From Utricularia gibba (lineage: Eukaryota > Streptophyta > Magnoliopsida > Lamiales > Lentibulariaceae), in contig NEEC01000020.1 in NCBI GenBank assembly GCA_002189035.1, positions 310,001 to 374,000 of the forward strand: DNA of 64,000 nt, read 5' to 3'. The first letter of the stretch is position 1; every line of letters begins with the position of its first letter. This document shows positions 2,014 through 50,800 of the stretch, one piece after another. The translations under genes were made by a program, and so were the position numbers. The notes beneath the pieces are model-generated. The model was not told the origin of the DNA, did not search any database, and worked only from the letters and a program-made list of their open reading frames with translations.

Positions 2014-3335
2014 CTAGCCTTTCTGGGCAAGACTTGCATTCTTGAGCCAATTGGAGAAGCTTTCTAGGGTTTTGGTGTCTGCTCTGTAGTGCTGCTGCGT
2101 GAACTGAAGGAACATCGGCCACTTGAAATCGGGGTATTGCCTCGGCCGATCGGGGGTCAACAGCTCCGGCGGCGGCGCCACCATCTTGTCTTTATTTGGA
2201 CACAGAAAGAAGGCTAGTGAATTTCTGGAACTCTCCTTGTTAACCACCGCCCTGTGCAAGCAGCTTCTGTAAATCCCGTTCGAGAGAGCCTGAAAAATCC
2301 AATTGATTGATCGACGGAGGTTTGGGATTCTGCAAACGGATTGAACCGAGTCCTCTTACCATGAAGGTATCGCCTATGTTGACGATGAATTCGTCGAAAT
2401 TAGGGCTAATCGAGCGCCATTCTTCGTCGACGAATACTTGGAGGCCGTTGATTGATTCCTGATGAAGGATTGTGAGTGCAGTTGGATCACAATGCGGCCC
2501 GGTGCCTAATGTTTGATCCGGTCTCTGGCAAGGAGGATAGTGATTTAGTCTCATTATGGATTCATTTCCTTGGAACAGTCCTTGGAAGCGACCCTGGTTC
2601 ACTCCCAGGCTCTTCCCTAAAATCTCCATGATTGTAAGTGATAGATCATTCATTTTGCTGCAGTATTCTTGGTACAATTCCCTGCAAATGTTTCAATATG
2701 TGAGTTTTCAGTTTCTCAGCGTCGATTCTTACTAGTTTTTTCTGCAGATTCTCCGGCTCCATACCCTGTTTTTGAGAACTCTTCGCCAAGTGTTCGACGA
2801 AAGTACTCTTCCACAATGTGGGATGATTTCTCCGCAGAACACTGGAAGGATAGTGTCTCCTTCCATGGTAGCTTAGCGGAGAATCGCCCGGTGAAGCTAC
2901 TCGCGTAGCCGGAGATCTCTCCGGGCTTCCTCAGTGCCCGCTGTTTCTCCTTAACACCTAGACCGAAGAAATGCTCATTGCACCGGTGTGCTTGCCGTAT
3001 GAGGTTGTGGTCCACACCATGATTAACCACGGAGAAGAAACCGTGGCTCCGGCATGCCTCGCCCACCAGGCGGTTGGCTCTTGCCACAGCAATGGGGTCA
3101 CCATGGAGGAACGCAGCAATGTCAATGACCGGAACACGGAGCTCCGGCACGATTCCTGCACTTGGGCGTTCCTGTTCAGACCATATGAATTGAGATGGTA
3201 TACTGAGCTTGTGGCTTAAGATGGTGGCATCATGAATGGAAGGCTGTGTTTGTTCTCCATCTCCGGCATCCCCGCCAGCCGCACCGGTGCTTGCAGCTGC
3301 GTTCTCTTGCCAACGATCATGCAATGCATCACCAT
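2014..3335 (-). CDS. GA20ox: Gibberellin 20-oxidase (2-oxoglutarate/Fe(II) dioxygenase), N-terminus disturbed
   Basis: Enzyme of gibberellin synthesis that oxidises C-20 of GA12/GA53 step by step to GA9/GA20 in the cytosol. Three exons are supported: up to 2765, 2360-2681 and 2014-2289. Exon 1 carries LPWKETLSF, the GA20ox hallmark. Exon 2 carries NHYPPCQRPDQTLGTGPHCDPTALTILHQE, which includes the Fe-binding His and Asp. Exon 3 holds the third His (LHRAVV) and the 2-oxoglutarate motif RNS. The dioxygenase frame has no ATG anywhere in exon 1. The only nearby ATGs (about 3316-3335) are in another frame that ends within exon 1. One extra base in the C run at 3270-3273 would connect an ATG to the dioxygenase frame. 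The 5' limit is therefore inferred. A TATA-like TATATAA lies near 3410. Without the N-terminal uncertainty the protein is about 385 aa, normal for the family. Confidence 0.88.
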
Positions 3336-3404
3336 TTTGCAGAGGCTTAAGTGATTTTCAGAGTTGTAGTAGAGAAGAGAGGTGAGTGGCTCGGTGGAGT
3401 AGAG

Positions 3405-3416
3405 CCCGTTATATAG
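3405..3416 (-). promoter_or_regulatory. Probable TATA box of the GA 20-oxidase
   Basis: On the minus strand GCTATATAACGG lies about 75 bases upstream of the ATG cluster at the gene's 5' end. Its position and sequence fit a plant core promoter. It was found by eye only. Confidence 0.45.
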
Positions 3417-4268
3417 CATCCATTTCAAAGGTTTTATAAATAAATTGTTAAAATAATTTTTTATTTATGTATCTTATTTCTTAAAAGAGAAATTAATAGC
3501 ATAATGAGCCATTTAAAATATTTTAATTCTGTATCTTTTTAAGCACATTTTATTAAATATATACTTTAAAACTATGATTAATGCATAAGAGTGGAGGATT
3601 GTGTTTTAAAATCAGTTTAAATTAATATGAGGTTGTCATTGATTACAAATGAAGTAAAGTATGTGATAAAATATAGAAGTTCTTTTAATTTTGCCCGAGA
3701 ATTTTTTCATAGAAGAATAAAACATAAATCATGAGAGTAGTATATTTAGAATGTACAATATCGTATAAAAATAATATGAATCTTGACATTTGAATAATTA
3801 GTTAAAATGCATTATTTTTTATTTTTTTTTATCTTGTGATAACTTCCATATTACAATAAATCATGCATACTTCTAATTCAATAGCCAACTCTAATATCAA
3901 AAAGAAAAAAATATGTAAATAGGTTAATTTTTTATAAAAAAAAAATAAAATTCTAATAGGTTCATGATAGAAAAAGTAAAATAAAATAAATTTTAATTAA
4001 AATATTAAATCCTAAATAAAAAATAATTCATTTTTGTATTGAAAATTGATACCTTATATCATATATTTTTCCCATCATCCAATAATACTACATTATGTTG
4101 ATATTTAATATATCAGTATGTTTTTCGGAATCGAAAATCATAACATTGTCGATAAACAACATACATATATGTATAAAGTTTCAATCCCCAAAAAACAAAA
4201 ACACTATCAGTATTTATACATTGATTTCGAATACTTCAAAATTGTATATGAAATCATGATCTTAAAAA

Positions 4269-4600
4269 AATTTAAATTACTATCAATATTTATCTCAATA
4301 TTGGTATATCGATCTCCAATATCATGAACATGATTTGTGTTGGTATCCTACCTTATAAATACATTCAAAAATAAACAAGAATCGAGGCAGAGGGAATGTA
4401 ACTAAATTTTCCCTAAAAGTATGAAACGTAAGATCGTAGTGACATGTACAAAATAGATAATATCATAAAAATTAAATATGAATCTCAATTAATATTATCA
4501 AAATCTATTTCGATATTGGTATATCTACCTCGAATACCTCGAACAGTATTTGGATTGGCATCTTACCTTATGCATTCTAAAATAAATAAAATCCCCAATA
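4269..4600. repeat. Diverged direct duplication, about 110 bases per copy
   Basis: The stretch around 4285-4375 (atattggtatatcgatctcc, then ttggtatcctaccttat) is matched at about 4505-4590 by atattggtatatctacctcg, then ttggcatcttaccttat. Both copies end in AAAATAAA-type sequence. The copies lie about 220 bases apart and differ at many sites, so the duplication is old. Confidence 0.55.
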
Positions 4601-6211
4601 TTTATGAATAATTATAACCATTTGGATAAATTCAAAATAGGAGTACAAAAAAAGAAGCGCATATTTGTTTTTGTGCTAAAGTTAGTCCAAAAGTAGTTAT
4701 CTTTATGTCATTTTTCACGTGATAGAGAAAGTCAAAATACAGATTTTTGCATGATTTTATTTATTTTATTTTTTACCCCAAAATAAATATTCCTAAAACA
4801 AACATGTCAAATAAAAAGCAATATAAAAATTAAATGATTAATAATTCGCGTGAAAGTCGTGTCCAATTCCAAGTGTTGGAAAATATGTTATTTTAATTAA
4901 TATTTCTAAAGTAATCGATAATTAAGTATTTCACTAAAAAAATATAGAAAATTGATTATTTCTTATAATAATCAATTTTAAATATTTTCAAAATTCCGAC
5001 TTGCATATCAAATAATGTAATTTTATTTATTGTTCTTTCAAATTCCTTAATTCTAAACCCTAAATTTAATTAACTCCAAAACCCTCTATTTTGTAAATGA
5101 AAAAGCTATGTATCTATTCACCTTTGGAAAAACCTAAAGTAATTTTCACCAACTTTAGTTTGATGTGTGGAATGAGGAGATCGATCACCAACTTTTGGCA
5201 CAACCTCAATTTTAGGGTCGTGGTCCAATTTTAGGGACGCCAATTCATTTAAAAAACAAAACCTTTAAATCTATGTTTATAGTGATTAATGTTTCAATAA
5301 AAGTATTCAAAAGTACTTTTGGTATCACATATTGGTTAGAAACGAAATAAATGACGTGATTAAATAGAGGAATCTTAAATAGAAGAATCTTACTAATCTT
5401 GTATAAGTCATTTTTCCAAAAAATGACTTTTTAAGTTTTCAAAAAGTACTATTTGGAGAATGTTTCTAAAAAACAAAAAGTAATTCTGACTTAATAATTT
5501 TTTAAAAAATAAAAATTGTTCATATTGAATAACAAAACTGCTTTTGAAACGTTTTTCTATAAATAGAAGTTCCAACAAATAGAACCTAAATTTTATTCCA
5601 TTTTGCTTCTCCATAATCATTTTTCAAGAAGAATTTAAAATAGGAAGCATCAACTTCTTTAAAAAAAAAAAAGAAACAATGAATTGATTCCACCAATCAG
5701 ACAACACTATAATTCTTTCAATCATTCTCCATCCTCATTATGGAAATTCCAAAACAACAAGAAAATACTTCTCTGCATGCTCTAAAATTGTTCTTTTTTA
5801 TTTTTCTTCATTATGAAAAAAAAATTAAAAAACCTGAGGCAGGGACAAAAATTCGAGTTGGGAATGAGGGGAGTGGCGAGCAGGTTCACATGGGCCAAAC
5901 AGACACACAGACAAAGGAGCAAAGGGACAAAAGACTGTTGATCAGAGAAGACAAAAACAAGGAACAGTGTCATGATACCCACCTTAGTTTTGCTGTAAGA
6001 AAACCCTACTTTTGTCGCCCATTCTCCTGGTTTTTCGTTCTGTTGGAGCCACTGTGGGGGGATGAATGGGGGACAGGGCGATCTCCCCCGATCTCGCCTG
6101 CCATTGGATTCTAGCGGGGAAGCCAATGTGCGATGGATCGATCTCTCATAATACTCTACCTACATGTAATGTAAAAAGGAGGAGTATGATCGACCCTTAC
6201 TTTCGGAGTTG

Positions 6212-6270
6212 TTTGATACTATAAAACGAGTTTAGTTTATTTGGATTTAAATAAGAATGATGTAACGTAC
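6212..6270 (+). repeat. Dispersed repeat motif, copy 1
   Basis: The sequence actataaaacgagtttagtt, continuing ttatttggatttaaataagaat, is matched at 7420-7470 on the same strand. A diverged inverted match lies near 24550-24600. It may be a piece of a MITE or other small element. Confidence 0.45.
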
Positions 6271-7417
6271 ATCGTTTTTTGAGAAAATTACAAATATAAC
6301 AACTCAAGTTTCAATTAGTATAACTAGTATAATTCTAATATTTTGAAATTGTAAAAAATTCATTTCAAGTTGTCAAAACCGTTTTATGAAAACCTAAATA
6401 ATTTTCAAAACTTTTAAAAAATGAACCAAATATGAGAGATTAAATATACAACCAATACATATAAATGATAAATTAAAAATGAAAGGTTAAATATATAAAA
6501 AAAATATCAAAATAATTGTGAAAATCATTCAACCAAGACCCAAACATAAAGTTTAAATATACAATTTTATAAATTGAGGGGCAAATTGTTTACACAAAAT
6601 GTAAATTAAAGGACCTATAATGTAATTTTAAAACTTGAAGTTTAAATTCTTTATATTGATGGTAATTTGAGGTGTCAATGTCAAATTTTACCCATTTTTT
6701 TGGTATATAATATTTAATAAATAAAAAATATATACTAGATCGGTAAGATATATAGATGTAGATATGTGAATTAGTCCATTCATGAATTCAGATACGTCGA
6801 TTTGTGATTTAAAAAATTATAGATGTATTTGATTAATTTCAATTTATAATATTTAAATTATATTAAAATAATTTTAAAATACTAAAATAAAATAATTTTA
6901 ATTAAAATATGAATATTTAAAAACATTTAAATAAAAATGATAATCTATAAACGTAATCCTCGGACTTTGAATAACGGAAAATGACGACAATCGATGGATG
7001 ATGATCGAGTATTTGAGATGAAAACGAAAATATGAACAAAAAAATCAAATGAATAAATTTGAATTTTGATTATTTAATTAAATAATATTAAAATTAATGA
7101 TTAAAAATACTAAATCCGATGACAATTCGCGCCACCTGCGCACACCATGTGCGAGAATCATCGCACATACACGTGATCTTGTGTGAGAAATCTGATCCTT
7201 TTTTTTTATTTTAATATGTGAGATATAATATAAAAATAGCAAATTTTTAAATGAATATGAAGAGATGGGGCATATAGATTTAAATAAGCATTTTTTTTTG
7301 TAGAATTAGATAAACCCTTTTAAATCTCGAATTTATTTAGACTCACGACAAAGCAACACAATAGAAATTGTAATCCTTATGTTAAAACGCGAAAAGAGTA
7401 TTTTATTTATGGGGTTG

Positions 7418-7472
7418 GTATAAAACGAGTTTACTTTATTTGAGTATAAATAAGAATAATATAATATAATTA
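7418..7472 (+). repeat. Dispersed repeat motif, copy 2
   Basis: Reads gtataaaacgagtttacttt then atttgagtataaataagaataat, closely matching copy 1 at 6212-6270. The flanks do not align, which fits a short dispersed element rather than one large duplication. Confidence 0.45.
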
Positions 7473-7900
7473 ATATTTATATGATTGGTAAAACATTTCA
7501 AATTAAACAAAAGAATTAGAAATATATGTTTAAATAAATCCTATTTCATAGACTTAAATAAAATGGTCTCAATTCCGAATTTATTTTAACTGCTGCAGTT
7601 TATGCAATTTAATTTATATCTAATATATGAGTTTGTGTTATATAATAAATGATACTATATATTTATTTTTTAAAATCCATGTTATTTAATACAAAGTAAA
7701 ATTAATTGGAATGATTTTTTTTAATTTAATACAGTAAATTGAATGGGAAATAGAACTCGCTTTTCGCATCCGAGCCTCTGAGCGCTGTGCACGTGTCCGT
7801 GTGATTGCAGTGATGAGGCAGCGAGGGAGCACGCTGCGGTTTTGCCAAATACGAATCGCAAGAACTCTGTTGCCATTTTTGCCTAATTTTGTGAGCCCTA

Positions 7901-9828
7901 ATGGCAAAGGATCGCGTTTCAGGTTGGAAAGGGTTTTTTTTTTGGTTTCAATCTTGTTATTGGGGATGTGAATAGGTTTTCTTGTAGCGTGATTTGTGGG
8001 AGTTTTTGTATTGCAATCTGTTAATGGGATAGTTATGGCAATGTTTCTTGTTTTGATTATTCTATTGGCCGCTTTTTAGAATTCTGGAGTTCGTTATTTC
8101 GAAAAGCGAGACGGTTTTGGTTGTCTTCAGGGGTTTCTTCCCTGAGAAAAGGGCGATGTGGAATTTGGATTTTTCAGGTTTTAGAATTGGAAACTAGCCT
8201 GCTAATGTATTAGTGATTGCTTGATGAGACTGTCATGCCATAGCTAATGGCTTTTGTATTCTCTTTGTTTCTAACTTGGAACTTGCTAGGTGATCTTGAA
8301 CATCTTTCCCTGAAAGACCATGGAGGCCCTACTGGGAAAGGGGCTCTTGTTGTTTGCTTTGGCGAAATGTTGGTGGACTTTGTACCCGATGTGAGTGGAG
8401 TTTCACTTGCTGAAGCCCCTTCCTTCAAAAAAGCTCCAGGTGGTGCACCTGCCAATGTTGCTGTTTGTGTGGCAAAGCTAGGAGGCTCAGCAGCGTTCAT
8501 CGGGAAGGTAATTCCGTTTTCTGTTGGATACATTGCTCCACATTGTATCGGAGTTTCGTTTAGGCATTTGATGTGGTATTTGGATTGATGACCTTTTTTT
8601 TGTGTGTATCTCATAGGTTCGAGGTTCTAGATATCCAAACTCTTTTTCCTACATGAGTGTACTTGTCTTTGTGTGATGAAAAGCTGGGGTATTTTTGTCA
8701 TAGGTAGGCGACGATGAATTTGGGCATATGCTTGCCAACATTCTGAAGGAAAATAAAGTTGACAATTCTGGTATGCGGTTCGACTCCTCAGCCAGAACTT
8801 CTCTGGCATTTATTTCACTAAGAGCAGATGGAGAACGTGAGTTTATGTTTTACCGTCATCCCAGTGCTGATATGCGCTTGTGCAAGCAAGAACTCAATGT
8901 GGATCTTGTGGAAAAGGTTTGTCTTCCATCCTTTCTAAGGCTCGCCTCTTGAGAATCAATACCTTAAGTCACCCTCTAAGTCCTTGCTACTGAATACAGG
9001 CTACCATTTTTCACTATGGCTCTATCAGCCTTATTGAGGATCCATGCAGATCAACCCAGATTTTTGCAATGGGGATCGCCAAGAGATCGGGCAGCTTGCT
9101 ATCTTATGATCCAAATTTAAGGTTACCATTGTGGCCTTCCGAAGATGCTGCAAGGAAAGGCATCATGGCTGTATGGGATCATGCCGACATCATCAAGGTA
9201 TTTGGGCCAAAAAAACTAGACCTCAACATGTGTTTCCTATTCATGTGACTCAACATCCTTCCCTGATGTAACAGATAAGCGAGGAGGAAATATCTTTCCT
9301 AACCGAAGGTAATGATCCACAAGACGATGCTGTTGTGTTAAGCAAGCTGTTCCATCCGAATCTGCGGCTTCTTCTGGTAAGCGAAGGAAAGGCTGGCTGC
9401 AGATACTACACAAGGGTTAGTTTCCAGAAAAGTTTGCATTTTGATTCAACCGTGTGCTCTGCATCAGTTCAAAACTTTCTTTGTTCATACAGCAATTCAA
9501 GGGGCGAGTTCCAGGTGTCAAGGTTAAGCCGATCGACACAAACGGAGCTGGTGACGCATTCATGGGTGCATTTCTCCATTGTCTTGCTTCAGATCCCAAC
9601 ATTCTCCAAGTATCATCTCAATTCCAAATTTTCCAGAGGTGTTTCTGAGAAGCATTTTGTTTCTGCTAACCTGAAAAAAAACGTTGGCAGGAGGAGCAAA
9701 GGCTGAGAGAGGCTCTCCTGTTTGCAAACGCTTGTGGGGCGATCACGGTGACGAGGAACGGCGCGATCCCCGCACTACCCACGAACGAGGAGGTCTACCG
9801 ACTCATCACTAACAGTAAACAGGAGTAA
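7901..9828 (+). CDS. FRK: Fructokinase (pfkB carbohydrate kinase)
   Basis: Phosphorylates fructose to fructose-6-phosphate with ATP, feeding sucrose-derived carbon into glycolysis and starch. Seven exons join without a frame break: 7901-7922, 8290-8507, 8704-8916, 9000-9197, 9275-9415, 9493-9609 and 9691-9828. The product is 348 aa. [10 protein letters not shown] and the substrate-loop [11 protein letters not shown] lie near the N-terminus. VGDDEFG follows, then YDPNLR, and the second pfkB signature DTNGAGDAF has the catalytic Asp at about residue 285. There is no transit peptide, so it is probably cytosolic and of the FRK6/FRK7 type (from memory, Arabidopsis At5g51830 is closest). It ends only 205 bases from the tail of the oppositely oriented TRM gene. 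Confidence 0.96.
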
Positions 9829-10033
9829 GAAATAAACCAGGAGGTTTCAGATTTGTTCTTGCTTTCATCATTTCACAGTCTCCTGGTGTTATCTTCTTGG
9901 ATAGTTTACATTTTAGCTGATTCTTCCTTAGGTAATTGGGATTCCTAACCTCCTGAGGAAAATGTACGATTGAAAAAACTCAATAATGATTCAGCAATAG
10001 GTTACAGCATTGTTTCCCGAGAGCGGGAGTCAT

Positions 10034-11579
10034 CTACCGGACGGCGGCGGCCATAACCGCAGCCATTGTTTCCAATAGTAGTGACTCCAAGATTTGATTT
10101 TGGATTTCGGGTATCAGCGTATTTGCTTCCTCTTCCAAGTAGGCATGACTAAACGGTGGCGGCTTCTCAGCGTTGAAATCACTCTCGATCAAGCCATCGA
10201 TATCGCCCGGAAACTTGCAATCGGCCGCCGGGAACTTGTCTATTTCATCCCATATTTGATCGAATATATCTGAATCGTTGTGATTCCTCTGGTGCTTCAA
10301 GCTGTCCGCCAAAATCTCGTTCACAGCCTGAAAAATCAGCTTTCTGTTGCACCGGTGGCGCAGATCACCGCCGGCGATGGGATGGAATAGTTCGAGGTAG
10401 AAGAAGATTGATGCGTCCAAGGGATGTGAAATGTCCAGCAACTTTGCTGTGGCAAATGGAGTAGTCGGAATCCCCTTGTTCATAAAGCCCGCCCTTTTCA
10501 GGATTCTTCGTACGTATCTCTTGTACTCCGTCGTCGTCGTGGCGCAGTTGTCTCCCGGGAGTATGGATGCTTCCTCGAGATGGAGATGCTGCCGCATGTG
10601 GCTCGTCTTCCACAAAAGAAAACTCAGTGAGATCGCACGCTAGGTGTTTGATTGATGAAATCATCCAGGGATCATCTGATTTTACCAGAAGTTCAGACAT
10701 TTGGTGAATGGAAGAAAGAGATACCTCTCGTGGTGGCAACCTTGTTGCTGCAACTCTCTTCGCCTTGACCGGAGAGCGAGAATGCGCTATGGGTGTTTCT
10801 TCTACCTTGGACTTGCTGTTTTCTGGGGTTGCTTTTCTTCTTGCTGCTGACTCAAAAAAAGGCTCCTTTTTCACCTTCTTGTAGGTGTGACAATCAGAAC
10901 CTTTTCTACTCTTCTTCAAAGTGCTCTGCTGCAGGTTTCTCACCTTTGTTGCTCGACGAATCTCTTGACAATCACAGGAAGTTGGAGTTCTTGAATTTGC
11001 ATTGGTGATATCATGAAGCACATTTCTTCTTCCAACGCGTTCGCTAACTTTTCTCCTTACATGTACCCCCATCGGAGATGTACTCTGGTCCGCAGGCGGC
11101 GGCGGAGTGGCTGCTCGTCTTCTCCGGTGGGATACCTCTGTATCAAGTCTTCTGCTGTCTTTTTCTCTCGGTACGTGTAGAGACATCCTCTGTTGATGAT
11201 ACCCAGATGAGGATCCTTTCAGTGGCAAGACAGCATCAAATGAATGCCTCTTGGGGTCGTTGAGAAGAAAATCAGCAAAAAGGGATCTCGTCCTCGGTGT
11301 ATAACATGAAAGTGAAGGAGATATGGGTTCTGAGATCATCAACTCCAGCCCCATCAGCCGCGCAACAGGGCCCGGAGATCTCAACTCCGGCGGCGCCGGG
11401 CTCCTCGAAGCTGAGAGCCCTGTTCTGATCTCATTCACAAGTACGTGATTCACTCGCATCTCTCCTTCTTCCTGCTGTTTAAAAGCTCGTTGCTTCAAAC
11501 CTCCCCCTCTCATGGCAGCTTCAACAAGGCGAAGAAGTGAACTCAAGCAGCCCCCAGAAGCAGCGTAGTCACCCTCCAT
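10034..11579 (-). CDS. TRM/LONGIFOLIA-like protein with DUF3741 motif and C-terminal DUF4378
   Basis: Plant-specific family (TON1-recruiting motif proteins) linked to cortical microtubules and cell shape. The ATG at 11579 starts MEGDYAASGGCLSSLLRLVE. The DUF3741 motif ARLMGLE lies near residue 78, followed by a long basic, Ser/Pro-rich region. The C-terminus (EYKRYVRRILKRAGF through the ELFHP, NEILAD and IWDEID blocks) matches DUF4378. One intron is needed. The best fit is 10640-10724 (GAG|GTATCT to CCTAG|CGT), giving about 486 aa. An alternative intron from GTAAAATC near 10695 to CTCGAG near 10583 also keeps frame. A longer start at 11684 would need GTG and is unlikely. Probable relative: Arabidopsis At5g51850 (TRM24), from memory. 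Confidence 0.85.
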
Positions 11580-12610
11580 TTCTCCAACAGCACAACCAAG
11601 AGTGCACTCTGCAACTTGTGAAGAAGAAGAAGAATGACAAGGGAGCAGCGGTTGGGTAGAAGACAAGACTGCAAACCCGCTCACCCAAGCACCAGAGCAG
11701 GTTCCCGGGCCCCTTGAGGTTTAAATTTGCATTGCTTAATTTCCCTTCCAAAACCAGAGGCGCTGCTCATCTCAGCGCTCAGCCATCAGCAGTCTGAGTT
11801 GGAGGAAGTAAGCAAAGCGGGAGGAGGGCAGATGGGTTGCTTGCATCGCGCTGCGTTGAACGGGAAATAGCTTTAAATTCTGTGCAGAAACTGGTGACAA
11901 CTTGCCGCCTGCCCCTGCCCAGCACTGGATCGTTGCTTGTATGACTCAACCACCGTGGCAGGCGCCCTGACCCGCACACTACACGGCTATCCCTTTCATT
12001 CTCCCTCTTTTTCTTTTTAAAAAAACTAGTCTGTAGCTTTAAAATAACAAATATATTTAATATGGTAATTTCAATTATTTAATTTTAGGTTTAATAAGTA
12101 ATATGTAGCAAGGGCAATCATTTTATTTCACTAGTTCAATATGATATCGACAACTGTTTTAAGGGCTCGGTTCAAAGAATGATGAAAATACGTTAAATGA
12201 ATTTCACATCAGTTATACATATGAATTGTTTATATAGATAGATTTGTATTAATCTTACATGATATTTTTTATTAAAAGAAGAAATTGTAAAATTATATAG
12301 ATTATGAGTTCAAAACAAACAATATCATATAAGAATAATAATTATTTTTTATCAGTACAAGTTCCGTATATTATTTAAATAAAACCACATTATTATTTCT
12401 GAATTTTCAATATCTCTCGGGCCAAATTTTATTTTTAAAATTTTGTTAATATTACATTTTTGGAGATATTTTTTAAAAAAAAAAGCAGGAGAAAATCAAC
12501 ATTTAAAATCAAGTATATATATATATATATATATATATAATGGGGGCGCGGTAAAAGAGAAAGTAGATTGCATTTTCCACCCCCATTTTATTTTGTGCAA
12601 AGGCCTTCCT
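11580..12610. other. Intergenic: TRM 5' region and AT-rich spacer
   Basis: 11580-12000 is the likely promoter and 5' UTR of the TRM gene and is only moderately AT-rich. 12005-12600 is AT-rich and ends in a TA microsatellite. No further gene is seen; the short frame at 12443 crosses the microsatellite and the 3' end of the peroxidase. Confidence 0.6.
12512..12540. repeat. TA dinucleotide microsatellite
   Basis: An uninterrupted run of TA units of about 28 bases, just downstream of the peroxidase stop codon on the opposite strand. Confidence 0.9.
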
Positions 12611-13923
12611 TCAATTCACTGCTCTGCAATTCTTTCTCACTTCACCGGTCTCTATAACTCCGACGTTCCCCAATCTCACCATTGCCGCAGCGAAGGCCTG
12701 AAAGAACAACGTCTGATTCCTGGCGAACGAGTCCACCGTGGATTTGGTACGGGTATCGCCGTAGAGTCCTTGATCCGACGAGAAAACTCCCATTCCTTTG
12801 ACGATTCTCTTGTAATAATCGTTGTCGAAGACGGTGGCCGTGGAGTCCAGCAATTGGCCGGCGTTTCTGTCGGTGTTCAGTTTCGGACACTGATTCTGAA
12901 GAGTGGCGGCGAATTTGGAGTTCAGCGTGGGATCAACGCCATTCGTGGAGTTGAAATTGCGAAGGCGTGAGTTGAAAGAGGAGCAGTGCGAGAATCCGAG
13001 AGTGTGGCCGCCTGACAGCGCTACGAGGTCATTCGCCGATAAGCCACGGCTGGAAAAGCTCTGGATTAGTTGCGAGGCGCTGAACGTCGGCGCCGGGAGG
13101 TTCACGGTGTCATTCGCATTCGAAACTCGCCCGTCCTTTCTTCCCTTGAGCACGCCCCAATTCGGCCCCCCTGCCTGCGATTGAAATCGATTCGATTAGG
13201 GTTTGCTCGTTGATTTGGTGAGCGAATCAGTCAGTATACCAAGACGACAACGTCTCTAGCGGCAATCGCGATTATATCCGCGCAGGAGACGATCCGAGGG
13301 CAAGCTTTCTCCAGCCGCCGCTTGGCGTTGTCGATGACGTAAAATGCAGCTAAAGAGACATTCGGCGGGCCGTCCTTCTCCGCCTTGTTCCCCGGCGTCG
13401 AATCCAACAGCACCGACGCGTCACATCCCTGCACAGTAAGCACATGCCATCCACTCACCATCATACATACCATGCATGCATTACAAATGATCCCATCCGT
13501 CCATCACTACAAGATCCAGCGGTTCCACTAATACCATTAAATAAAAAAATTATAATATCATTAATAATAAATTATATTCCATGCAACTCCCGCATTTGCG
13601 TAAAAAAATTGATGCATGTTGTACCATGGAGCAAAAGCAAGCCCCACGCTTACCCTCACGAAGCAGTCATGGAAGAACATCCTCAGAATGCGAGGGGAAA
13701 CTCTAGGATCGTTCCTCACGGCCTTCGCCACCGCACCGGAGACGATCCTCTCCGCCCGAGGGCACGTCCGCGCGTAGAAATTCACGTCGAGCGCGGCCGC
13801 CGTGTCGCGGAGCCCCGCCACCGCGAGCAGAACCAGAAGCAGAGAAGAGCCGAATCGGAGAGGCATTGCGAGGTTGGATGCTCCGATGTGGATAGGAGCG
13901 GTGAGGCCCCGGGAGGGCGCCAT
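12611..13923 (-). CDS. Class III peroxidase, PRX64/PRX66-like
   Basis: Secreted haem peroxidase acting on H2O2 and phenolics in the cell wall, for example in lignification. Three phase-0 exons: 13654-13923, 13240-13428 and 12611-13174, giving 340 aa. A second in-frame ATG at 13866 would give 321 aa with a cleaner signal peptide ([18 protein letters not shown]). It starts mature sequence at [11 protein letters not shown]. The distal site [17 protein letters not shown] is split exactly at intron 1. Next come [17 protein letters not shown] and [18 protein letters not shown]. The proximal haem His lies in [12 protein letters not shown]. The conserved cysteines are present. All residues expected for activity are seen. 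The order next to the TRM gene resembles Arabidopsis At5g51850/At5g51890. Confidence 0.95.
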
Positions 13924-15146
13924 TATATGCAACTAAGGGAAAGTTTTCGGTTGCATGGATTTGATTGGTGAACGAGAAGATGTTGAGCGTAAACAAGAAG
14001 CATCCCACTTTCTCCATTACATCGATTGCTAATAACAACTTTTTCGTGCTCCCACATAATTGAGCATGTGAGTTTTTTTTTTCCTCGGATAATAGTGATT
14101 TAAATTATTTAGGATGTGTGTTGATAGGTCGGATAGTAAAATAGGATATATAATAATTATTTTTAGTAAACATGTTTGTTATTCATAATTTTTCTAGAAT
14201 GAAAATGTAGTTTATAAGAAATAAATATATTATATAAAATTATTCTTATTTAAATAAAATACATTTTATTCTATAAAAAATGATAAAAAAATGAAGGTTT
14301 AATTTTTCTAGGATAAATAATGTTAATTTTATATTATCAAGGTTTAATATAAACATTGTTTTGTAAAAAATGATTAAGAAGTGAGAATAAAGCTTTTAGT
14401 TGGAATGATTAATCAATCCACCCTTTTAAAGGCGTTAAAATGTTTCCATCAGGTTGGGGAATGAATTGAAGGACAAGGAATCATTATAAAAGAAAATGTT
14501 GAATACATGTAACTCATCTTTGGAATGAATCCGATTTCGGCATGACGGAATTCATAGGATTATGTTTTGATATGAAACTCGATTTTGATCGATCAAATCC
14601 GAGTTTGATTGAACTTGATTTTGATCGATTAAGTTCGAGTTTGATTGATGGATGTATATATTTTTAATTTTTTATTGTATTGTATTTACATAAACTTGAT
14701 TTTGACCGATTGAGTTCGATTTTGATTGATTAAATATGTATAATTTAATTTTGTTGTTATATTTACATAAATTTGATTTCAGTCGTATTAGGTTAATTTT
14801 CGGTATCAGAGAATAATGATTAATAAAAAAATGAAAGTTCAGGTGTTAATTCATACGGACACCTCCTATTCGCTCCTACTACATAGAAGAGGAGATTCCA
14901 ATGCATGATTCATACATATGAAAATTTGTATGATCATTCTATTCTATATTTTCCTCTTCCTTATTTGTAATCGATATTTAAGATAGTGATAACTTATTAT
15001 TGTTATCTAAAAATGAACAACTTGATAAGATTCACATATGATATACTTTTAGGATTTTTATTCGAAATATTTAGAATACAAATATGAAACCATTTTCTAG
15101 AATCTCAAATATATATTAGAAATTCCATGTGGTTGAATTAATTATT
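13924..15146. other. Intergenic, AT-rich, with a short tandem repeat
   Basis: Promoter side of both the peroxidase (leftwards) and the PPR gene (rightwards). It holds the repeat at 14576-14790. Nothing else is recognisable. Confidence 0.6.
14576..14790 (+). repeat. Degenerate tandem repeat based on aacttgattttgatcgatt
   Basis: Units starting at about 14576, 14612, 14692 and 14769 share acttgattttgatcgatt and gttcgagtttgattgat. The two middle copies also share a following segment ending in tatttacata, giving a period near 78 bases. The last copy is cut short. Confidence 0.7.
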
Positions 15147-16982
15147 ATGATTAAAAAAAGAGTAGGAATCATCGAGGTACGGCGAGGACACCATGCATGC
15201 CTCCACCGGCTTGGGACGTCATCCGACTTGTCGCAAAATGCAGGCGACGGCGGTGGCCGGGAAGGCGACCGACTCTCGGGGATTCATCGGACTTCTGTCG
15301 GAGAAATCCATGGTCATTTCATCAGAACTTATCAGCACAAAATGCCCCATGCTATGGCGCCGGTTATCAAGTCTTATGCTCGGTCTCCAGCATCAATTGG
15401 AAAGGCCCTGTTCGCATTCGAGGAGATAGAGAACCCCACATTGCCGGTTTGGAATCATATGATTCAAGGGCTGTGTAGCAGTGATTCTCCTAAAGATGCC
15501 CTTAAACTGTTCGATAGAATGTGTGAACGAGGTTTGATGGTGGATAATCTTACTTGTATTTTTATATGTAAAGCTTGTGCGAAAGTTGCAGATATTTTAC
15601 GCGGAAAAAGGGTTCATACTCTGGTTTTGAAGCTTGGGTTTGGGTCTTATCTCTTTGTTTGTAATGCTTTGATTCATATGTACGGTTGTTGTGGTGATTT
15701 GGGGTCATCGAGGAAGGTGTTTGATGAAATGGGCGAAAGAGACTTGGTATCTTGGAACTCGTTGATATGTGCATACAGTCAGTGTGGGAAAAACAGAGAG
15801 CTTTTGGCTCTTTTTGACATGATGAGAGCCAAAAATGTGAAAGCTGATGCTGTGACAATGGTGAAAGTAGTTTTAGCTTGTGACTCTTTCGGAGATTCTG
15901 AACTTTTAGATGCTTTAGTGAGATATATTGATGATAATTGTATTGATATTGATGTTTACTTGGGAAACACACTGATTCATGCTTATGGAATTCGAGGTTC
16001 CTTAACCATGGCAAGGAGCTTTTTTGATAGGATTACTAAGAAGAATTTGGTTTCATGGAACTCGATGATAATTGCTGCTGCAAGGTCAGGGGATTTGGAC
16101 CAAGCAAAGAATTTGTTTGACGAGATGCCTCAAAGAGATGTCATTTCGTGGACTTCTTTGATCTCAGGGTATTGTCAGGGAAACAGACCTAAAGATGCAA
16201 TATCATTATTCCTAGAGATGATGGCAGCCAAAATCAAGCCTGACCAGACTACGTTAGCAAGTGTGCTCTCTGCTTGCGCTCAAGTTGGAAGACTTGATAT
16301 GGGGAAGACAGTCCATGATATTATCAGGACTAAAAATATAAAACCTGACATTTATATCGGCAATGCTCTTATAGATATGTACTGCAAATGTGGATCTGTT
16401 GAAGGTGCACTGAAGGTGTTTCATAATCTGCAAGACAGGGATTCCATTTCATGGACATCTGTCATTTCTGGGTTGGCAGTGAACGGTGATTCTGAGCATG
16501 CTCTTCAACTCTTTTCGCAGATGTTACGAGAAGGAGTGACACCCATTTATGGGACATTCGTTGCGATATTACTTGCTTGTGCTCATGCTGGCCTGGTTGA
16601 AAAAGGCCTGCATTTTTTCTCCATTATGCAGAAAGATTATGGCTTGACACCTCAAATGAAGCACTACGGGTGTGTGGTAGATCTCCTTTGTCGAGCGGGA
16701 CACCTGGATAGAGCATATCAGTTCATCAAGGAAATGCCAGTATTCCCAAATCCTGTGATATGGAGAATATTTCTTAGTGCTTGCAAAGTTCATGACAATC
16801 TGGTTTTCGCCCAAATTGCAACTGAAAAACTCGTTGAGTTGGATGCTGATAACGGTTTGAACTATGTGCTATCATCAAACTCTTATGCCAGTGCACAGAA
16901 ATGGGACGATGCCATCAAAATGAGAGAGTTAATTGACAAAGATCACATCTTCAAGCCCAATGGCTGGAGTCGCATGCACTAA
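15147..16982 (+). CDS. Pentatricopeptide repeat protein, PLS subfamily, E class
   Basis: RNA-binding protein of the type that edits or processes mitochondrial or plastid RNA. Intronless, about 611 aa from the ATG at 15147. The upstream reading frame continues to 15129 without an ATG. Repeats are clear from about residue 80, including typical P/L/S spacing (WNSLICAYSQCGKN, DVISWTSLISGYCQGNRPKDAI, DIYIGNALIDMYCKCGSVEGALKVF). The C-terminus follows E-motif order and stops at KPNGWSRMH, so there is no DYW deaminase domain; any editing role would need a partner supplying it. The N-terminal 60 residues are Gly/Arg-rich and do not look like a normal PPR start. Other frames open at 15193-15197 (for example MPPPAWDVIRLVAKC), so the true N-terminus is uncertain. 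Confidence 0.92.
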   Translation: MIKKRVGIIEVRRGHHACLHRLGTSSDLSQNAGDGGGREGDRLSGIHRTSVGEIHGHFIRTYQHKMPHAMAPVIKSYARSPASIGKALFAFEEIENPTLPVWNHMIQGLCSSDSPKDALKLFDRMCERGLMVDNLTCIFICKACAKVADILRGKRVHTLVLKLGFGSYLFVCNALIHMYGCCGDLGSSRKVFDEMGERDLVSWNSLICAYSQCGKNRELLALFDMMRAKNVKADAVTMVKVVLACDSFGDSELLDALVRYIDDNCIDIDVYLGNTLIHAYGIRGSLTMARSFFDRITKKNLVSWNSMIIAAARSGDLDQAKNLFDEMPQRDVISWTSLISGYCQGNRPKDAISLFLEMMAAKIKPDQTTLASVLSACAQVGRLDMGKTVHDIIRTKNIKPDIYIGNALIDMYCKCGSVEGALKVFHNLQDRDSISWTSVISGLAVNGDSEHALQLFSQMLREGVTPIYGTFVAILLACAHAGLVEKGLHFFSIMQKDYGLTPQMKHYGCVVDLLCRAGHLDRAYQFIKEMPVFPNPVIWRIFLSACKVHDNLVFAQIATEKLVELDADNGLNYVLSSNSYASAQKWDDAIKMRELIDKDHIFKPNGWSRMH

Positions 16983-17079
16983 GGGACGCAGCCGAAGATC
17001 TGCTTTGCTTGAGTTAAAAGATGAATTTTATATCTTCACCCCTGTGAAAGAATCTTCATCTGGATGGCGGCATAAATGG

Positions 17080-17440: not shown

Positions 17441-17478
17441 TGAACAAATATTCAACTAGCTACAGTTGCAAGTAGAAT

Positions 17479-26900: not shown

Positions 26901-27595
26901 TTAATCCTTGTGGGTATGGGAGTAGTGGATTTTGAAGGCCTTGGGGAGGTAAAATGGCAGCAGAAACCCTAGAAGATTGAACCCCAGAACCCTAAATTGG
27001 CCACCGCCAGCGCCCTCCCGGCGAACAGAGGCATCCGGCCAAACTCCTCCTTGGCGAATTCGATCCTCACCCACTCCCAAATGGGCGGCAGCCTCCATGA
27101 ATTGTAGAATACCGGAACAAAAACTCTAATCGGAAGTGAAAACCCGGCAGAAAACGAAACGCCCTCCATCAGAACTTGAGTCGCCAGAAGGAACACTGGT
27201 GGCGCCGCTGCTTGGACGCCGTCTCGGTCGCCCTGGAGAATACCGATGATGAGGTAGACCACAGGGAGAATCAAGCCGACTATCGCTCCCACGATAACGT
27301 AGCGACCTAGAATCCTGTTATTGGCGGCGAAGACAGGCGGCGGTGTGTCGGAGGTGGCGGCGGGGAAGGAGATTCGGGAGAGGAATAGGAGGTAGAGCGT
27401 GGAGAAGACGACGAAGGCGATATCTACGAGGCTGATTGTCGCGGTGGCGGAGATGAAGATGACGATCGCCAAGGAGTAGATATGATGCGCAGTGATGTAA
27501 ATACGCCGACGCGGCGCAGGCTCCACGGCGGCGGCGGTTGGCGTCTCGTCTCCATGGAGAGAGATGTCGCGTGGCGGATCTGCTCCGGCGGACAT
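26901..27595 (-). CDS. Multi-pass membrane protein (DUF7733-like), frame break near C-terminus
   Basis: Function unknown. The ATG at 27595 starts an Ala/Pro-rich N-terminus, then ITAHHIYSLAIVIFISATATISL and further hydrophobic segments. Next come a loop RVFVPVFYNSWRLPPIWEWVRIEF, then GRALAVANLGFW and a last hydrophobic stretch. About four membrane segments are predicted by eye. The original frame stops at 26956-26970 as GSIF-stop. One extra G at the C run 26982-26985 (G on the coding strand) would instead give GFNLLGFLLPFYLPKAFK and stop at 26901. That ending fits my memory of plant homologues, so a lost base or sequencing error is likely. No introns. Confidence 0.7.
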
Positions 27596-33616: not shown

Positions 33617-36633
<3,017 letters not shown>

Positions 36634-38610
36634 GGCAGTCTTAGCTTCTCCTTCCATAGCATTTCCTGCTTCGCCTGTTCATTCTTTTTTTATCTCACAG
36701 AAGGTTCATAAAAATAATTTTATTATTTTATTTTGCATTTTAAATTTTAAATAAATAAAAAATTAAAATATTTTATTATAAATAAACTAGTATCCTTTTT
36801 TGATCAGTAGGAATAATTTTAATTATTAATTATTAAATTACAAGAATGTATGTAATCATGTTAAAACAAAATCGAATTAAGAATCAATTAATGAAATCAA
36901 AGGGAAAATGATGATAATAATTTAATTACTGATGAATTATGTATAAAAAGACGAGAATCTACATGGAATTTGCTACACATGTGCTAATGATTTGCAAAAA
37001 TAGTTATTCATCTTTTATTTATTATAATTAAAAATTAATATTAAAAATAATTATTTTTCTCATGGATTATATTTTATACTTGACTTCTGTAAGTATACCG
37101 ACTCATGAAATTACCATCACTTCTTTTTATATTATATTACTTTATTATTAAATAACAAATTATAATCAGTTATCTAAATAAGTATCCTAAGAATTTGCAC
37201 ATCGCATTTATATTATAAAATTTGCACTTCACATTTATATTGAAAATTTACACATTAGGTAATTTGAAAGTGTGCTTCACATTATTTAGAATATAATCAA
37301 TTTTAAAATTAAATAAATAGAATTAATTTTAAAATTATAAAAATTTTTCTGCAATATTATAAAATTTAATATATATTGTAAAATTTAGTATGCTAAATTA
37401 TTTTATAATTAAATATTATAATATAAATATATATTTATATTAGATAATAAGTAAATGATATAATTTTTTAATTAATTATTAAAACACAAATTTAAAAAAT
37501 TCAATATTTTTAAAGTGCATAACGTTAAATATTAGAATTTTTAAAAATTAAATAAAAATCAATTCAGAAAATTATTCATATAGAACAGATCCTACGAAAT
37601 TATTAAAAAAGAATTTAGTTAAAATTAAATACTGTTTTTAAATAAAATCACCTTATTTATTCATTATCTTTCCTTAAGTCTGATTTTGATATTATTATTT
37701 ACTAAGTATATCTAAATCTTACCTTAGATTGTATTATATAATTAGGCAATAATGTTACGTAGGTGGCGCTGCAGTTGAAAAAACTTCGTCTTTTTGGTAT
37801 GATCGCAATTTACTTAAAATTTGCTCTGCGTGTGTGTGTGTATGTGTGTGTTTTTTTTTGGATGAAGCTTGTTGCTTCATTGGTGCTGAATGTGTGATTT
37901 TCTTACAGACTTTGTGATAATTTTTTCGATATTTTTTTTTTCTGAAAAACAGCACCGATGGGAATGGGACTCTGTCCGAAACTGCCGGGGAGTCCATGGC
38001 AGTGATGTTCGAAGTTGATGCAACAGAATCAGGGAAATTTTGGGCTAAAAAATGTTAAATGTGGCCTGCCCTAATTATGTGGAAGTTTTTGAGGAGTATT
38101 GCGGTTTGATACCCCTTGTCTGTCATTGCCGTACGTGTACCATTTGGCTGTGAATGCGATTTCAGTTTCTGCATCTTTTTATTGGTGTTTTAGATGCCTG
38201 GTGGCGCCTCGGTGGGCGGTGAGTTTTTCTTTGTATCGGCGGGAATTGGGTTTTGGGGTTTCCAATTTTTTCTGGGTTTTAGTGCGCATTCCTTTTTGAT
38301 CCGATATGGGGAAGTGTAGTGATTGCAAGTGGTGTCGTTTACGGGAATTGGCATTTGGTGATATGGGGTTTATGTGCGTCATTTAAGTTTGTGTTTGGTA
38401 GCGTGATTGCTGCTATTCAATTACCAGTTTCAGGTTGCTGCATTGATTCACCATTGTTGCCATGTGGGTGTTCTCTAAAATCCGTTCTTTGGTTTTTGCA
38501 GGTATTTGTTGGGGGTGAAAAGGCGGAGGGCTTGACTGGTTTTCGGCGGATCCGCCTGATATCGGCAAAGCTGAGAGCTTTAGTCATTCCTCCGCCTTCT
38601 CCATTTGATC
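36634..38610. other. AT-rich spacer, then promoter/leader of the TPR gene
   Basis: 36700-37740 is very AT-rich with no gene. 37740-38610 is less AT-rich and probably includes the TPR gene leader, with a likely 5' UTR intron ending in the gttttttgcag-type acceptor near 38500. A short TG/TATG microsatellite lies near 37830-37850. Confidence 0.5.
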
Positions 38611-40140
38611 ATGGAATTGAATGCTGCTGCTGCAAGTTCCTTGCAATTCTCTCATTCTTCACTTTCTCGAACGCCCTCCTCGTCACAAACTTTCCCCCCT
38701 CCGCCTGTGCGGTGGCGCCGCCGCTTCTTTACCGGTGATGGGGCTCTGTTCTTCCGGTGTGATGCGAAATCCCCTGTGCGGCCCATCAAAAAGGCCTTCA
38801 GATCAAGCTTGAATAATCCATTGAACAAGTTTCCGGACCACCAGAGGCCTTTTGATGATTTCGAAACACCACAGTTTCCAGAAAGAGAGGAGATTATTCC
38901 TGCCAACATTGAGAGCATAGCGAACTCGGTCGACATCCCCTTTTCCCTTAAAATGATCAGACGAAAGAGGCAGTGGCAAAAGGAGCTACAAAATGCTGGG
39001 GAAACAGCTCGCTGTTCAGTATATAAAGCTTTTTCTTCACTTGTGTTTATAATCGGTGAGCTTCAAAGTTACACTCTGCAGATGGAGGAGTTGCGGGGGA
39101 TGATGGGAAATGCCCATAATGAGATCCACGCCTCATTTGTTTGGCTGTTTCAGAATGTCTTCTCTCAAACTCCCACTTTGATGCTTCATGTGATGACTCT
39201 TCTCGCAAATTACAGTGTTTATGCCATCTCACCTGGTCTCGACATAGCTGAGATTCTCAGTTTTCAAACATGTATGATCCAAGAAGTGTTATCTGTGGAA
39301 GGGGAGCAGAGTACAGATCAGAACATGGACTCATCAGTTCTTACCAAGCCTGTAGTCTCATCTTCCATAGCAGAGGTCGGAGGTGGTGGTGGCAAGTACA
39401 ATCAGATTGGTTCCGGAGAAGATGACCGGTTCAAAGAATCTGATGACCATCACAAGATTGGGACCAACACCTTCAGCACCATAGAGGAAGAGGCTCATTC
39501 TCTAACCCAAGAAGAGGAGGACCAGTGGAAATCATTTGTTGATCAGGCTTATGAGATGCAAGCTGAATCAAGAGACCAAGAACTTGATCATGAAACAATG
39601 CAGCTGTTCGTGTCGCCTATCGACGCTCGAATCGAATCAGATGATGCATCAGATCTTTCCAGGACGGAGATGCTGTACCTAATGCAGCTAGCAGAACAGC
39701 CCAAGAATTCCATGCTCTTGGCCAACTTTGCTCAGTTTCTCTACCTGGTGGCACAAGATTTCGACAGGTACCCATCAGATCTTTTAAGTTTGTAGTTCTC
39801 GAAAACGGATAATATCGAACAGGGGTGTGATCCTGGATACCATTGAAAAGTATGATGATGAAACAAAACAATCCATACTGCTTGTCATTGGCTTTACAGT
39901 TGATGTTTGTGATGGAACAGAGCAGAAGACTACTTCAGGAGAGCAACGCAGGGTGAGCCACAGGATCCAGAAGCGTTCAACAAGTACGCAAATTTCCTGT
40001 GGGTGGTGAGGAAGGACCTGTGGGCAGCTGAGCAGAGCTTCTTGGAATCCATGGATATCGAACCGGGTAACCCGTATTATCGAGCTGAGTATGCCCGCTT
40101 CCTGTCCAATACCGGCGGTGAAGACACTTGCTTCCTCTGA
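38611..40140 (+). CDS. TPR-like protein, probably plastid-targeted
   Basis: Function unknown. Two exons, 38611-39767 and 39921-40140, give 458 aa. The N-terminus (MELNAAAASSLQFSHSSLSRTPSSSQT) is Ser/Ala-rich and lacks acidic residues after the first Glu, like a transit peptide. The middle has two hydrophobic segments (YKAFSSLVFIIGELQSY and TPTLMLHVMTLLANYSVYAI) and an acidic linker. The C-terminus has TPR-like helices: NSMLLANFAQFLYLVAQDFDRAEDYFRRAT, PEAFNKYANFLWVVRKDLWAAEQSFLESM and NPYYRAEYARFLSNTGGEDTCFL. The TPR-like ending matches a plant family seen in proteins such as At5g20190 as I recall. The intron splits DR|A in phase 2, and the junction reads naturally. Confidence 0.85.
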
Positions 40141-41467
40141 CCCGACCCGTACTTCTAGACATCTTTGGTAGAAAAGGGGAATACAGATATTTGTCTAGAA
40201 TAGCTTTTTTATTATTATTTAATGTAAAATATACGGAATAAAATATTATTGCAAATTTTTCGTATAAATTAGCATTGGATATTTTAACGAAGGTTCGTGA
40301 TCCAAAATGATTCAATTGTGTTTCTATTTAATTTAATTCAACTCTTATTATGAAAGATTTAAATGTGATTTTTAGTATTTATCATAACGATAAAAATCTT
40401 TTGATTTTTAATAAACGATATATCTTTCAATATTTGGTATTTATAGAAATTATTGAATGTCAAATTGAATATCGAATAATTATAAAGCTAAATATCAACA
40501 TTAGTCTTATAGAAAATCAATTGCCGAAATAACATAATATGATATTTCGAAATGGGTTGGTAGTAAGATATTAATATATTTAAATATAATATAATTGAGT
40601 ATGTATATATTCAATTGTAAGGTAGATAACAAATTATATGTTTGATATAAATAAGAAAACATATCTTATTGTAGATATAATTAATTCTAATTTCCACTTA
40701 TGTATACCACCAATGAATATGTAAATAGTATAGCAATATATGATTAACTTGCATATGCTAATTAATCAAATGATAATTTATGTGTAAACTTAAGTATAAA
40801 TTTTTTATATTATTTTATCAAACATTTTCTTTGTATTGTATACTATATACTTGTGGAGATGCTGTTTTTTGTATTTTGAGGTTTTATAGTATTGTTGAAA
40901 TTAATGTGATTTTTTGATTTAGAATAAATTTATATTTTCTAGCGAATTTAATTTAAAAAGTGTGTTTAGTACATAAATAAATTTTATCAGAAATAAAATG
41001 AGATTTATACTAAGAGTATATATAACAGTATAATTTTATCTAAATTCTTTCGATTTTATTATTTTATTTCATATTTATGATATAAATTATATCGATTATA
41101 ATTTATCTCATATATCAAATATCTTTTTATTTTTATTTTTCCATTTAACTATCATCATTTATCCTCTCTACAACACACATTTAAAAAGATTTAATTTTCC
41201 GAGTTTTGAATTTATTTTTTAAAAAATGGATATGAATTATGGCGTGGAGTGGATAACGTAGAAAATTAGGAGAATTATATGAATAATATCAATAATTTAT
41301 GGCTCTGTTGGACTCTCGGAGCATGAGAATCGTCCCTCTGACTCCTCACACCTCCTGCCTCCCCGCTCCTCTCCATTGCATTCTTATCAACAATTCTTCG
41401 CCGCCGGATTGCGAGTGCTTGTGATTCCCGGTGTTTCCAGATGCGCCTCTGCTCGGGTTTATAGGAT
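40141..41467. other. AT-rich intergenic spacer
   Basis: Very AT-rich from 40200 to 41280, with only simple-sequence frames. 41300-41467 is the likely leader of the PFK-2/FBPase-2 gene. Confidence 0.5.
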
Positions 41468-47392
<5,925 letters not shown>

Positions 47393-47884
47393 CATGAGTA
47401 AGCTTCCTTCTCCTCAAGAGCTCACAGTAAGAATAAGAAGAGATGCAAATGCATTCCTGGATTGCCAAACCGTTGGTTCAACATACACAAAATTCATCTT
47501 TGTGATCGTGTCGTCGATACCGTTACGGATCTAGATGAAAACTCATTGATTCGAATGAAGAACTTATGCTATACATCTGAGATTTCACCATTGCTCTGTT
47601 TTTCAAGATATAACACATTTTGGAGAAGGTGACTTGCAAGTGGAATAGGTGTTAGTTATGGCATAGGATCGAAAGCTTAGGCTGATGAACACAGTTTTCT
47701 GCGATCATCGTCGCACAGGATCAATGTACACAAGACTAACTAGAAACCTTTCCTGGATCAAAAGGGGGGTGGAGTGTGGTCACACTCTGGTTAACAGGCG
47801 GCTACTCTTCTTCTCTTGTAGCATTTTAGAGGTTTGTCGGTGTTTTCGACTTGCGTGGTGCTTGACATTCGGAAACTGAGCTGC
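47393..47884. other. Tail-to-tail spacer between F2KP and the PHD protein
   Basis: About 490 bases hold the 3' UTRs of two convergent genes. No independent gene is seen. Confidence 0.5.
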
Positions 47885-50800
47885 TCAACGGAGCTTGAAA
47901 GGTCCGCCTGTAGTCAAGCGTGGACAGTTTGATAAGAGTATGCAAACTGAAATGTAGGTGAGGCAATGCTGAAAACCAGACAACAGTACCGGTGTCGTTG
48001 ACAACCTGCCTTCTCTGTTGTCTATATCAATGACGGCAATGCTGAGAACACAAAGAATCAGGTGTTGTTAAATGATGAGCAGAGAATAGGGTGGATTGAT
48101 CTGTGGAGTTTGGTTCCGGTTTCTATGTAAGAAACACTGAACCATACATACCTTGCTGAGTCTTGCTCCATGCTGTTTGTGTCCATGTGGTGATGATCAC
48201 GTTGGTCAACTCGAGAACTTGATCTGTTTCCCTCTGAAGCAGGGGTGAGGCTCTTGCTTGTGTCAACGACATTTTCTGTCATGTCGAAGACGATGAAACA
48301 CGCGCACATGGCAGTTAAGAAAACAACTTGCTGATTTGGGGATTCGTACCTCCAGTTAGGTGGCTTGATGGAGTGGAGCTGTTACTTCTCGCCAAGAGTT
48401 TGTGGCAAAATTCAGTGCCCTGGAAGCTCAGCAGTGGGAATTCGAGAAACTTCATCCTCTCTGATTCTGTCATCACTGTGAACCCGAATGAGTTCGTCCA
48501 AGTGCTGAGTGCAGTTGGAGCCGCTGGCAAAACCATCCTCTCGACTCCCCATTCCACAAGTTTCTGAATAGGAGTATATGTTGTTATGCATCCATGTAGG
48601 TAGGCGCATAGGGAATCCTTTATTTTGGTAGAAAAGATTGGATGGTTACCTGCTCAAGCACATTCATGAGAATCCTACACATTCCAAGTCGTTGATAACG
48701 AAATCGCGTTGCGACGAGAGGAACTTCAGCCACTCTTTTGCCATGAATCCTGGATTTGTTGAAGGTGTGATCCTAAAGTTGTTCCCAAGGAAGAAAATGT
48801 AGAAGATCACAAGCAGACTAACCTCACTGTAGCTACAGATATCACGTCGGTGTCCTTCTCCAACAAAACTGTATAAAATCCTTGGAAGTTCAGATGGTGA
48901 ATCTTCGACCTGTCAGGGAGATGCCATTTATTTTATCACATCACAATTGAACGTCAAAGATCAGTATGCACACGTAAAATGAAGTTCCAACATGCTAATA
49001 TGCTGTGGTGAAAGGCTCTGCCTTAAAGCCGAGGCTCTGAATTGATTCGAGATCGTAAATTGATCATGAACAAACAACTATTAACATGAAGATGCAGGTA
49101 AAACATTTGCAGAGTAGGGGGGTGATTAACAGAATTAGAGGCCTACCTATGGTTGAAGATAATGAAGTTAGCTAGATCCTTTTTGGTGCGAGGCTCTTCT
49201 ATTGGATTGAAACACTCGTGAATCACTTCGAGGGCGCGTTTCAATTTGCTGGAACTCTTCTTTGAACCCTTATCATGAGGATTTGCCTTTCTGTGTTTCA
49301 ACAGTGTCCATGTCAAATTTCCAGCTCCCACATGAATTGGTTTTCCAAGAATATGCTGAAGCCCAGAAAAAATCTTCAAACGGACACCAAGATAAAGAAA
49401 AACAAAGAAAAGTGAGTCAAAGGAACAAGAAGCAAATATGCAGACAGTATGGATTTAGAAAGAGCTTCACCACCTGTTCACATGTATCTTCACAGAACCA
49501 CTCATCACCATAAGAACTGCTCCAATTTGCAATACTATCTTGTGTGAAGCAATCAGAATGATCTATAAAAGACTCAAACGATTAGAGAATAATACAAGAA
49601 TACATATGCTTTGCGTGCAATACAACTACATAAATATATAAACATGCATACGAGTGTGCAAGGTTACTTACAGCGGCAGTCGCACTGGCTACAAATGAGT
49701 GCAGAAGCTTCAATCACTCGCCCTTTTCTAAGATTGCATGTATCCTGGTGGCAAATGCGACAACAGCATGGTGGACAGTACCAGTTACCATCTGGAACCT
49801 CCTTCAGATCACAAACATAATCACATTATGAAAGTAATAATTATAAAGTAAACAAGAGAGAAGAATCGATAATTATCGAGTAAGCGGTAAGACACCTGTA
49901 AACCAAGACACTGAATATGAAACGCGGATGGACATTGATCACAAAGAAGTAATTCACCCCACAATGGCAGATACTGCATATGCAGTCATTTTTTTCGTTC
50001 TGTTTATTTTTCTTGATTTTACCCGATTTTTTTTGCCTCTTGGATTCTTTTACAGGATTTGCTTCCTTATGTCTTGTTCTCTTCCTGAAAGCGCTGTCCT
50101 TGACTGTCTTGCCTGACTTAGGAGACGATAAGTCAGAGGACTCACTCAACAGATTCTCAGGTTCCTTATTCACAGAGAGGGAATATCTTGGGTACTCCAG
50201 CGCAAGAATTTCTTGATGTGATGGGTTCGGAGACAAGCACTCATCGACATCCTTGATGTGATACATGGTTCTATGTCTTCCGAGTGTTGATGAGCTATTG
50301 CATGAAGTGAGCTCGCCATCATTTTCATAATACCATTTGCAGGCCAAAAGAAGGGATCTAAACACTTTCCCTGATGGTGACATGTAGAACATATCCCTCC
50401 TGGGACCTAGGAAGCCAAAACTCCAACCAGCATTCGACAAATGCTTCTTTGCTTTCAGAGCTATCTGTTTCAACTCCGGTTTAGCTACTCTTGAATACCT
50501 ACTGTCCTTCGGAAAGCAGTAGTAATACTCTCTTACTGCTTCTGGGCAATACTCAGGTTCGATGGCAGGCGAATTATCATGTTCCAAATTCACCGGATTT
50601 CTAGTAACCCGGAAACTTTCACCCACAATGGGTGAAACTTCTCCAGTAGATTCCACATGAATCTTTCTGTCATTGTTTGAGCTTGTAGGCCCTTGTGGTG
50701 CAGGTTCAATCATTGGAACTACAAGAGTATGATCCCGAAAAGCAAGATTAAGAGAATAGTAGAGTTTCCCATCAGGAGAAATATAACGGAACCTCGTAAA

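Follow-up and report, generated by a model that had tools for sequence, protein, structure and literature searches.

The seven frame breaks that interrupt five conserved genes in a 64,000-nucleotide stretch of the Utricularia gibba genome (hereafter the window; C317:310,001-374,000) are, judging by their sequence context, almost certainly consensus errors of a long-read-only assembly, in which one base has been dropped at each site, chiefly from runs of three or more G or C residues. The genes themselves are most likely intact in the plant. A sequence-only reading of this DNA had proposed homopolymer undercalling in the assembly, and the proposal is supported by the recurrence of the defect genome-wide, by the disagreement of overlapping contigs in run length, and by the existence of intact and broken copies of one GRAS gene.

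Long-read-only assemblies usually retain homopolymer-length errors, as described in a bacterial study (PMC8812927). A U. gibba assembly was built with HGAP (Quiver polishing) at 88-fold coverage to a contig N50 of 3.4 Mb (PMC5793159), and the PacBio assembly includes the 6.8-Mb Unitig_8 (PMC8333044). The case described here resembles that published PacBio/HGAP assembly (PMC5793159, PMC8333044), where long reads are polished by long reads, and PacBio/HGAP assembly of U. gibba is the probable source of the errors. The long-read consensus would drop one base from G/C runs of three or more, and each dropped base would shift the frame of the assembled gene while the plant gene itself remained whole.

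Each named break was examined by three-frame translation and by exact placement of the flanking conserved stretches. All seven breaks in the five genes are present and each is one base short. At every named site one added base rejoins the conserved reading, with the family-matching frame leaving and resuming as predicted. Neither a nonsense substitution nor a larger deletion was seen in the three-frame translations at any of the seven breaks, and the other exons of these genes read well.

The cleanest evidence among the broken genes is, on profile and paralogue matches, that from the DUF7733 membrane protein gene (26904-27595, minus strand), which breaks at 26982-26985, a GGGG run when read along the gene. 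Positions 4-174 of the Pfam profile PF24867 match in one frame and positions 175-194 in the next, and the paralogue L018, which is intact on contig C3, agrees by putting the break at 26982. In the prolyl-tRNA synthetase (ProRS) gene (33800-36600, plus strand), the break lies in CCCCC at 35491-35495. Its frames 35384-35494 and 35491-35517, once joined, align without a gap at the junction to 1h4q and other solved prolyl-tRNA synthetases. The leader and the bacterial best match of this protein suggest that it is of the organellar type. For the PHD-finger protein gene with an IDM1-like C-terminus (IDM1_C; 48315-52021, minus strand), the break falls in CCCC at 49957-49960 (GGGG on the gene strand), where frames 49952-49990 and 49896-49958 meet. 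The frame as written matches neither the PHD models nor any other profile, and the match is regained on joining the frames: PHD models match the joined reading to E 1e-9, or the downstream frame alone. In AT-rich intergenic DNA of the window, an 85-base unit is tandemly repeated at positions 53212-53398 (97% matches over 2.2 copies).

The GA 20-oxidase-like gene (2017-3335, minus strand; DIOX_N E 2.9e-23) carries a one-base break that is less sharply placed. The frame containing the start ATG (3219-3335) differs from the conserved frame (2776-3252); the conserved exon 1 is without an in-frame ATG, which sits in the neighbouring frame. An intact paralogue (L010, 76% identical) confirms the frame shift. 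The paralogue has one extra residue, so that an ungapped junction scan against it left the break unplaced; with gaps allowed, the alignment sets limits to the break without pinning it to 3270-3273. Thus, the shift proposed by the sequence-only reading is real, and its placement at CCCC 3270-3273 (GGGG on the gene strand) is non-unique; that position is plausible rather than proven because the break is bounded only to about 3252-3335.

An eighth break, absent from the earlier reading, is likely in a LONGIFOLIA/TRM-like gene (10037-11720, minus strand) at about 10500-10600. A VARLMGL motif lies in the open reading frame at 10368-11720 and DUF4378 in that at 10037-10639; the two frames differ, and there is scant room for an intron between these parts.

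Three of the seven breaks fall in the N-terminal exons of the F2KP gene (6-phosphofructo-2-kinase/bisphosphatase; 41468-47400, plus strand), whose catalytic exons are intact and which is identified by a downstream 6PF2K domain (E 5e-61). The first (41600-41605, plus strand) occurs at CCC between frames 41468-41605 and 41602-41652, the second (41840-41843, plus strand) at CCCC between frames 41798-41842 and 41842-41865, and the third (42053-42059, plus strand) at GG/CC pairs between frames 41937-42059 and 42053-42241. A frame switch is thus found at each place where one had been proposed, near 41600-41602, 41840-41843 and 42053-42057. Taken separately, the N-terminal pieces have no Pfam match; joined, they yield a weak CBM_20 match (E 0.0098), and the N-terminal part has no match in the PDB. 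Codon-usage tracks trained on GRAS genes show a weak frame switch near breaks 1 and 3, and they resolve neither break 2 nor the TRM-like gene. The case for these N-terminal breaks rests on reading continuity, on the weak CBM_20 match and, in part, on what is known of plant F2KP sequences. Upstream of this gene, a stretch of ~220 bp (window 40957-41199) recurs in ~35 places genome-wide at about 75-80% identity, and this dispersed repeat is probably a miniature transposon.

Six of the seven breaks can be located to a precision of a few bases, the exception being that of GA 20-oxidase. Runs of three to five G or C residues hold five of these six, and G/C runs of three or more account for 6.3% of the affected exon sequence (binomial tail 6e-6, or 3e-4 when a slack of 2 bases is allowed). 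Runs of four or more hold four of the six, compared with 1.8% of the exons concerned. The statement that most breaks lie in C runs thus stands for the five sites where the G/C run has three or more bases, but not for the third F2KP site, which has only GG/CC. On the coding strand, the short run is C in ProRS and F2KP and G in the DUF7733 and PHD genes.

Three genes serve as clean controls. The PPR gene (15120-16979, plus strand) is open over 620 codons in one frame and encodes 9 PPR repeats; UBA1 (57035-61247, plus strand) has open exons that encode its ThiF, SCCH, FCCH and 4HB domains; and EXO70 (62384-64000, plus strand), which runs past the window end, has Exo70_C in one 644-codon frame. 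MCAT, which had also been called clean, gave a weak match only.

Some or all of the broken genes might instead be genuine pseudogenes that have been decaying since a whole-genome duplication, in a genome that is shrinking. The lineage of U. gibba is known for gene loss, and F2KP has three breaks within about 450 bases, which is above the expectation from the average rate. However, the five genes are conserved outside the breaks and their exons are normal, and we saw in them no nonsense substitutions, larger indels or lost conservation. F2KP also has no second copy at the DNA level in the genome, and the closest genomic relative found for ProRS is only 48% identical. True decay looks different: a plastid-derived psaA on contig C515 has several in-frame stops plus shifts. 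We therefore regard decay as very improbable. The chance that a single gene, most likely F2KP, is really damaged, leaving a kinase/phosphatase without the plant-specific N-terminal extension, is similarly slight. The psaA sequence (L094; C515:70090-72420) lies beside an open psaB on a contig of 267.5 kb, and the pair probably represents plastid DNA residing in the mitochondrial genome. It had been considered as a deep-coverage plastid control and was dropped; since C515 has the appearance of a mitochondrial contig that carries a decayed insertion of plastid DNA, psaA was used as a picture of true decay.

Genome-wide tests were made on the U. gibba assembly (100.09 Mb, 516 contigs), with all comparisons made within the assembly. 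Contigs that overlap in near-identical sequence offer an internal test of consensus error. Small contig C422, the C414 end and the C416 start were compared over 17,257 bases, in which lengths differ by a single base at 19 places; there are also a few gaps of more than one base and 11 mismatches. Ten of these mismatches form two clusters, and the isolated substitutions thus number about one. Run lengths disagree at 1/967 G/C runs of two (0.1%), 3/231 of three (1.3%), 3/60 of four (5%), 3/16 of five (19%) and 2/6 of six (33%). For A/T runs, disagreement is at most 0.5% at lengths of three to five and reaches a few per cent only from length six. Errors are thus concentrated in homopolymers and rise with run length, both at five of the six placed breaks and in the contig overlaps. 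The GRAS gene of the overlap is one open frame on C422 but is broken on C414 and C416. Copies therefore disagree in run length and not by substitution, although the contigs concerned are haplotypes or variants.

That last point raises another explanation, in which run length truly varies, between alleles or between plant lines, and the assembler picked the broken variants. C414 carries two transposon insertions that C422 lacks, so the two contigs represent different haplotypes or plants and not one molecule read twice. Yet real variants would bring many substitutions, and about one isolated substitution accompanies the 19 length changes in 17 kb. Moreover, dependence on run length and on G/C content is the signature of sequencing error. 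We consider this explanation even less probable than gene decay.

Both insertions (L092/L061; C414:3438577-3439255 and 3441965-3442650) are of the same ~690-bp element, whose terminal inverted repeats are ~80 bp long and whose target-site duplications measure 10 bp; C422 (L091, L049, L093) has clean empty sites at both places. There are eight closely similar copies in the genome, and ~5.1-kb segments bounded by the same ends, possibly the autonomous partner of the element, lie on C412, C255, C142 and C4. This indicates recent and perhaps still ongoing Mutator-like transposition.

Halving the overlap disagreement rates gives an expectation of about 27 errors per 64 kb; these overlaps sit at contig ends, where error density is higher than in interiors. 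Five interior transposon copies contain one single-base deletion in about 3.5 kb. About 2.5 errors are expected in the measured exons of the broken genes and seven are seen, compared with none seen and 2.3 expected in the clean genes, a comparison that is biased since the broken genes were chosen for being broken. The excess in one group and the deficit in the other indicate that the errors are unevenly spread or that the rates are rough.

The defect is found throughout the genome. GRAS genes, which are mostly intronless, were used as a yardstick for frame breaks. Genome-wide, ~25 have one open domain and ~21 loci are split or partial. Frameshift-aware alignment to intact paralogues identifies at least 13 loci split by a missing base without an intron, a count that includes L061 and L072, the overlapping-contig copies of the C422 gene. 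The single missing bases expected of homopolymer deletion are found at all seven window breaks and at most GRAS breaks. Five paralogues (L054, L055, L056, L057 and L059) share a break point in the conserved GC-rich stretch PGGPP, and in each the break falls in a separate run of four to six C or G residues. Breaks at the same place in independent paralogues are hard to explain by decay, but a sequencing error that depends on sequence context should produce them. The same type of break occurs in Exo70 and ketoacyl-CoA synthase loci, such that the defect affects many contigs irrespective of the gene. UGT (PF00201) was tried as a further yardstick and dropped, its matches being too patchy.

These observations also bear on two mechanisms by which real breaks could be tolerated. 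Programmed ribosomal frameshifting might bypass them, given that some lie on potentially slippery runs such as CCCCC. However, the sites share only G/C runs and have no common slippery heptamer conserved in relatives, the affected genes are unrelated housekeeping genes, and the GA 20-oxidase relative L010, the DUF7733 relative L018 and the GRAS gene on C422 keep one frame. We know of no programmed frameshifting in plant nuclear genes, and we judge this mechanism extremely improbable. Repair in RNA by insertion editing, for which the single-C insertions of slime-mould mitochondria are a precedent, is the least credible of all, as these are nuclear genes, the coding-strand run is C in some and G in others, and near-identical DNA copies themselves differ.

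Undercalled homopolymers thus remain the preferred explanation, and they resemble the residual errors described for long-read consensus sequences (PMC8812927, PMC12007338) in that single-base run-length errors fragment genes and outnumber substitutions. Those reports mainly concern bacterial or small genomes; the present errors were measured within a single plant assembly, where runs of G/C are affected at shorter lengths than runs of A/T. We infer that reads would give a longer run at the window sites.

One published case of truncation was considered as a possible victim of such errors. U. gibba DCL3 is reported to be truncated and to lack the Dicer_dimer domain (PMC8333044). We found only three genomic matches to Dicer_dimer (C244:2027168, C3:1250835 and C255:2646411), which agrees with that report, and the candidate was rejected.

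Since a base is dropped from short G/C runs both in the window and genome-wide, the pattern reflects data quality and not biology: the frame breaks are an artefact of a known kind and say nothing new about the biology of the plant. If this assembly is the public reference for a model small plant genome, it may contain roughly one false frame break per 2-3 kb of conserved coding sequence, a rough figure drawn from the GRAS yardstick and the window. Published reports of lost or truncated genes with no basis other than this assembly would then need checking against short reads or transcripts.
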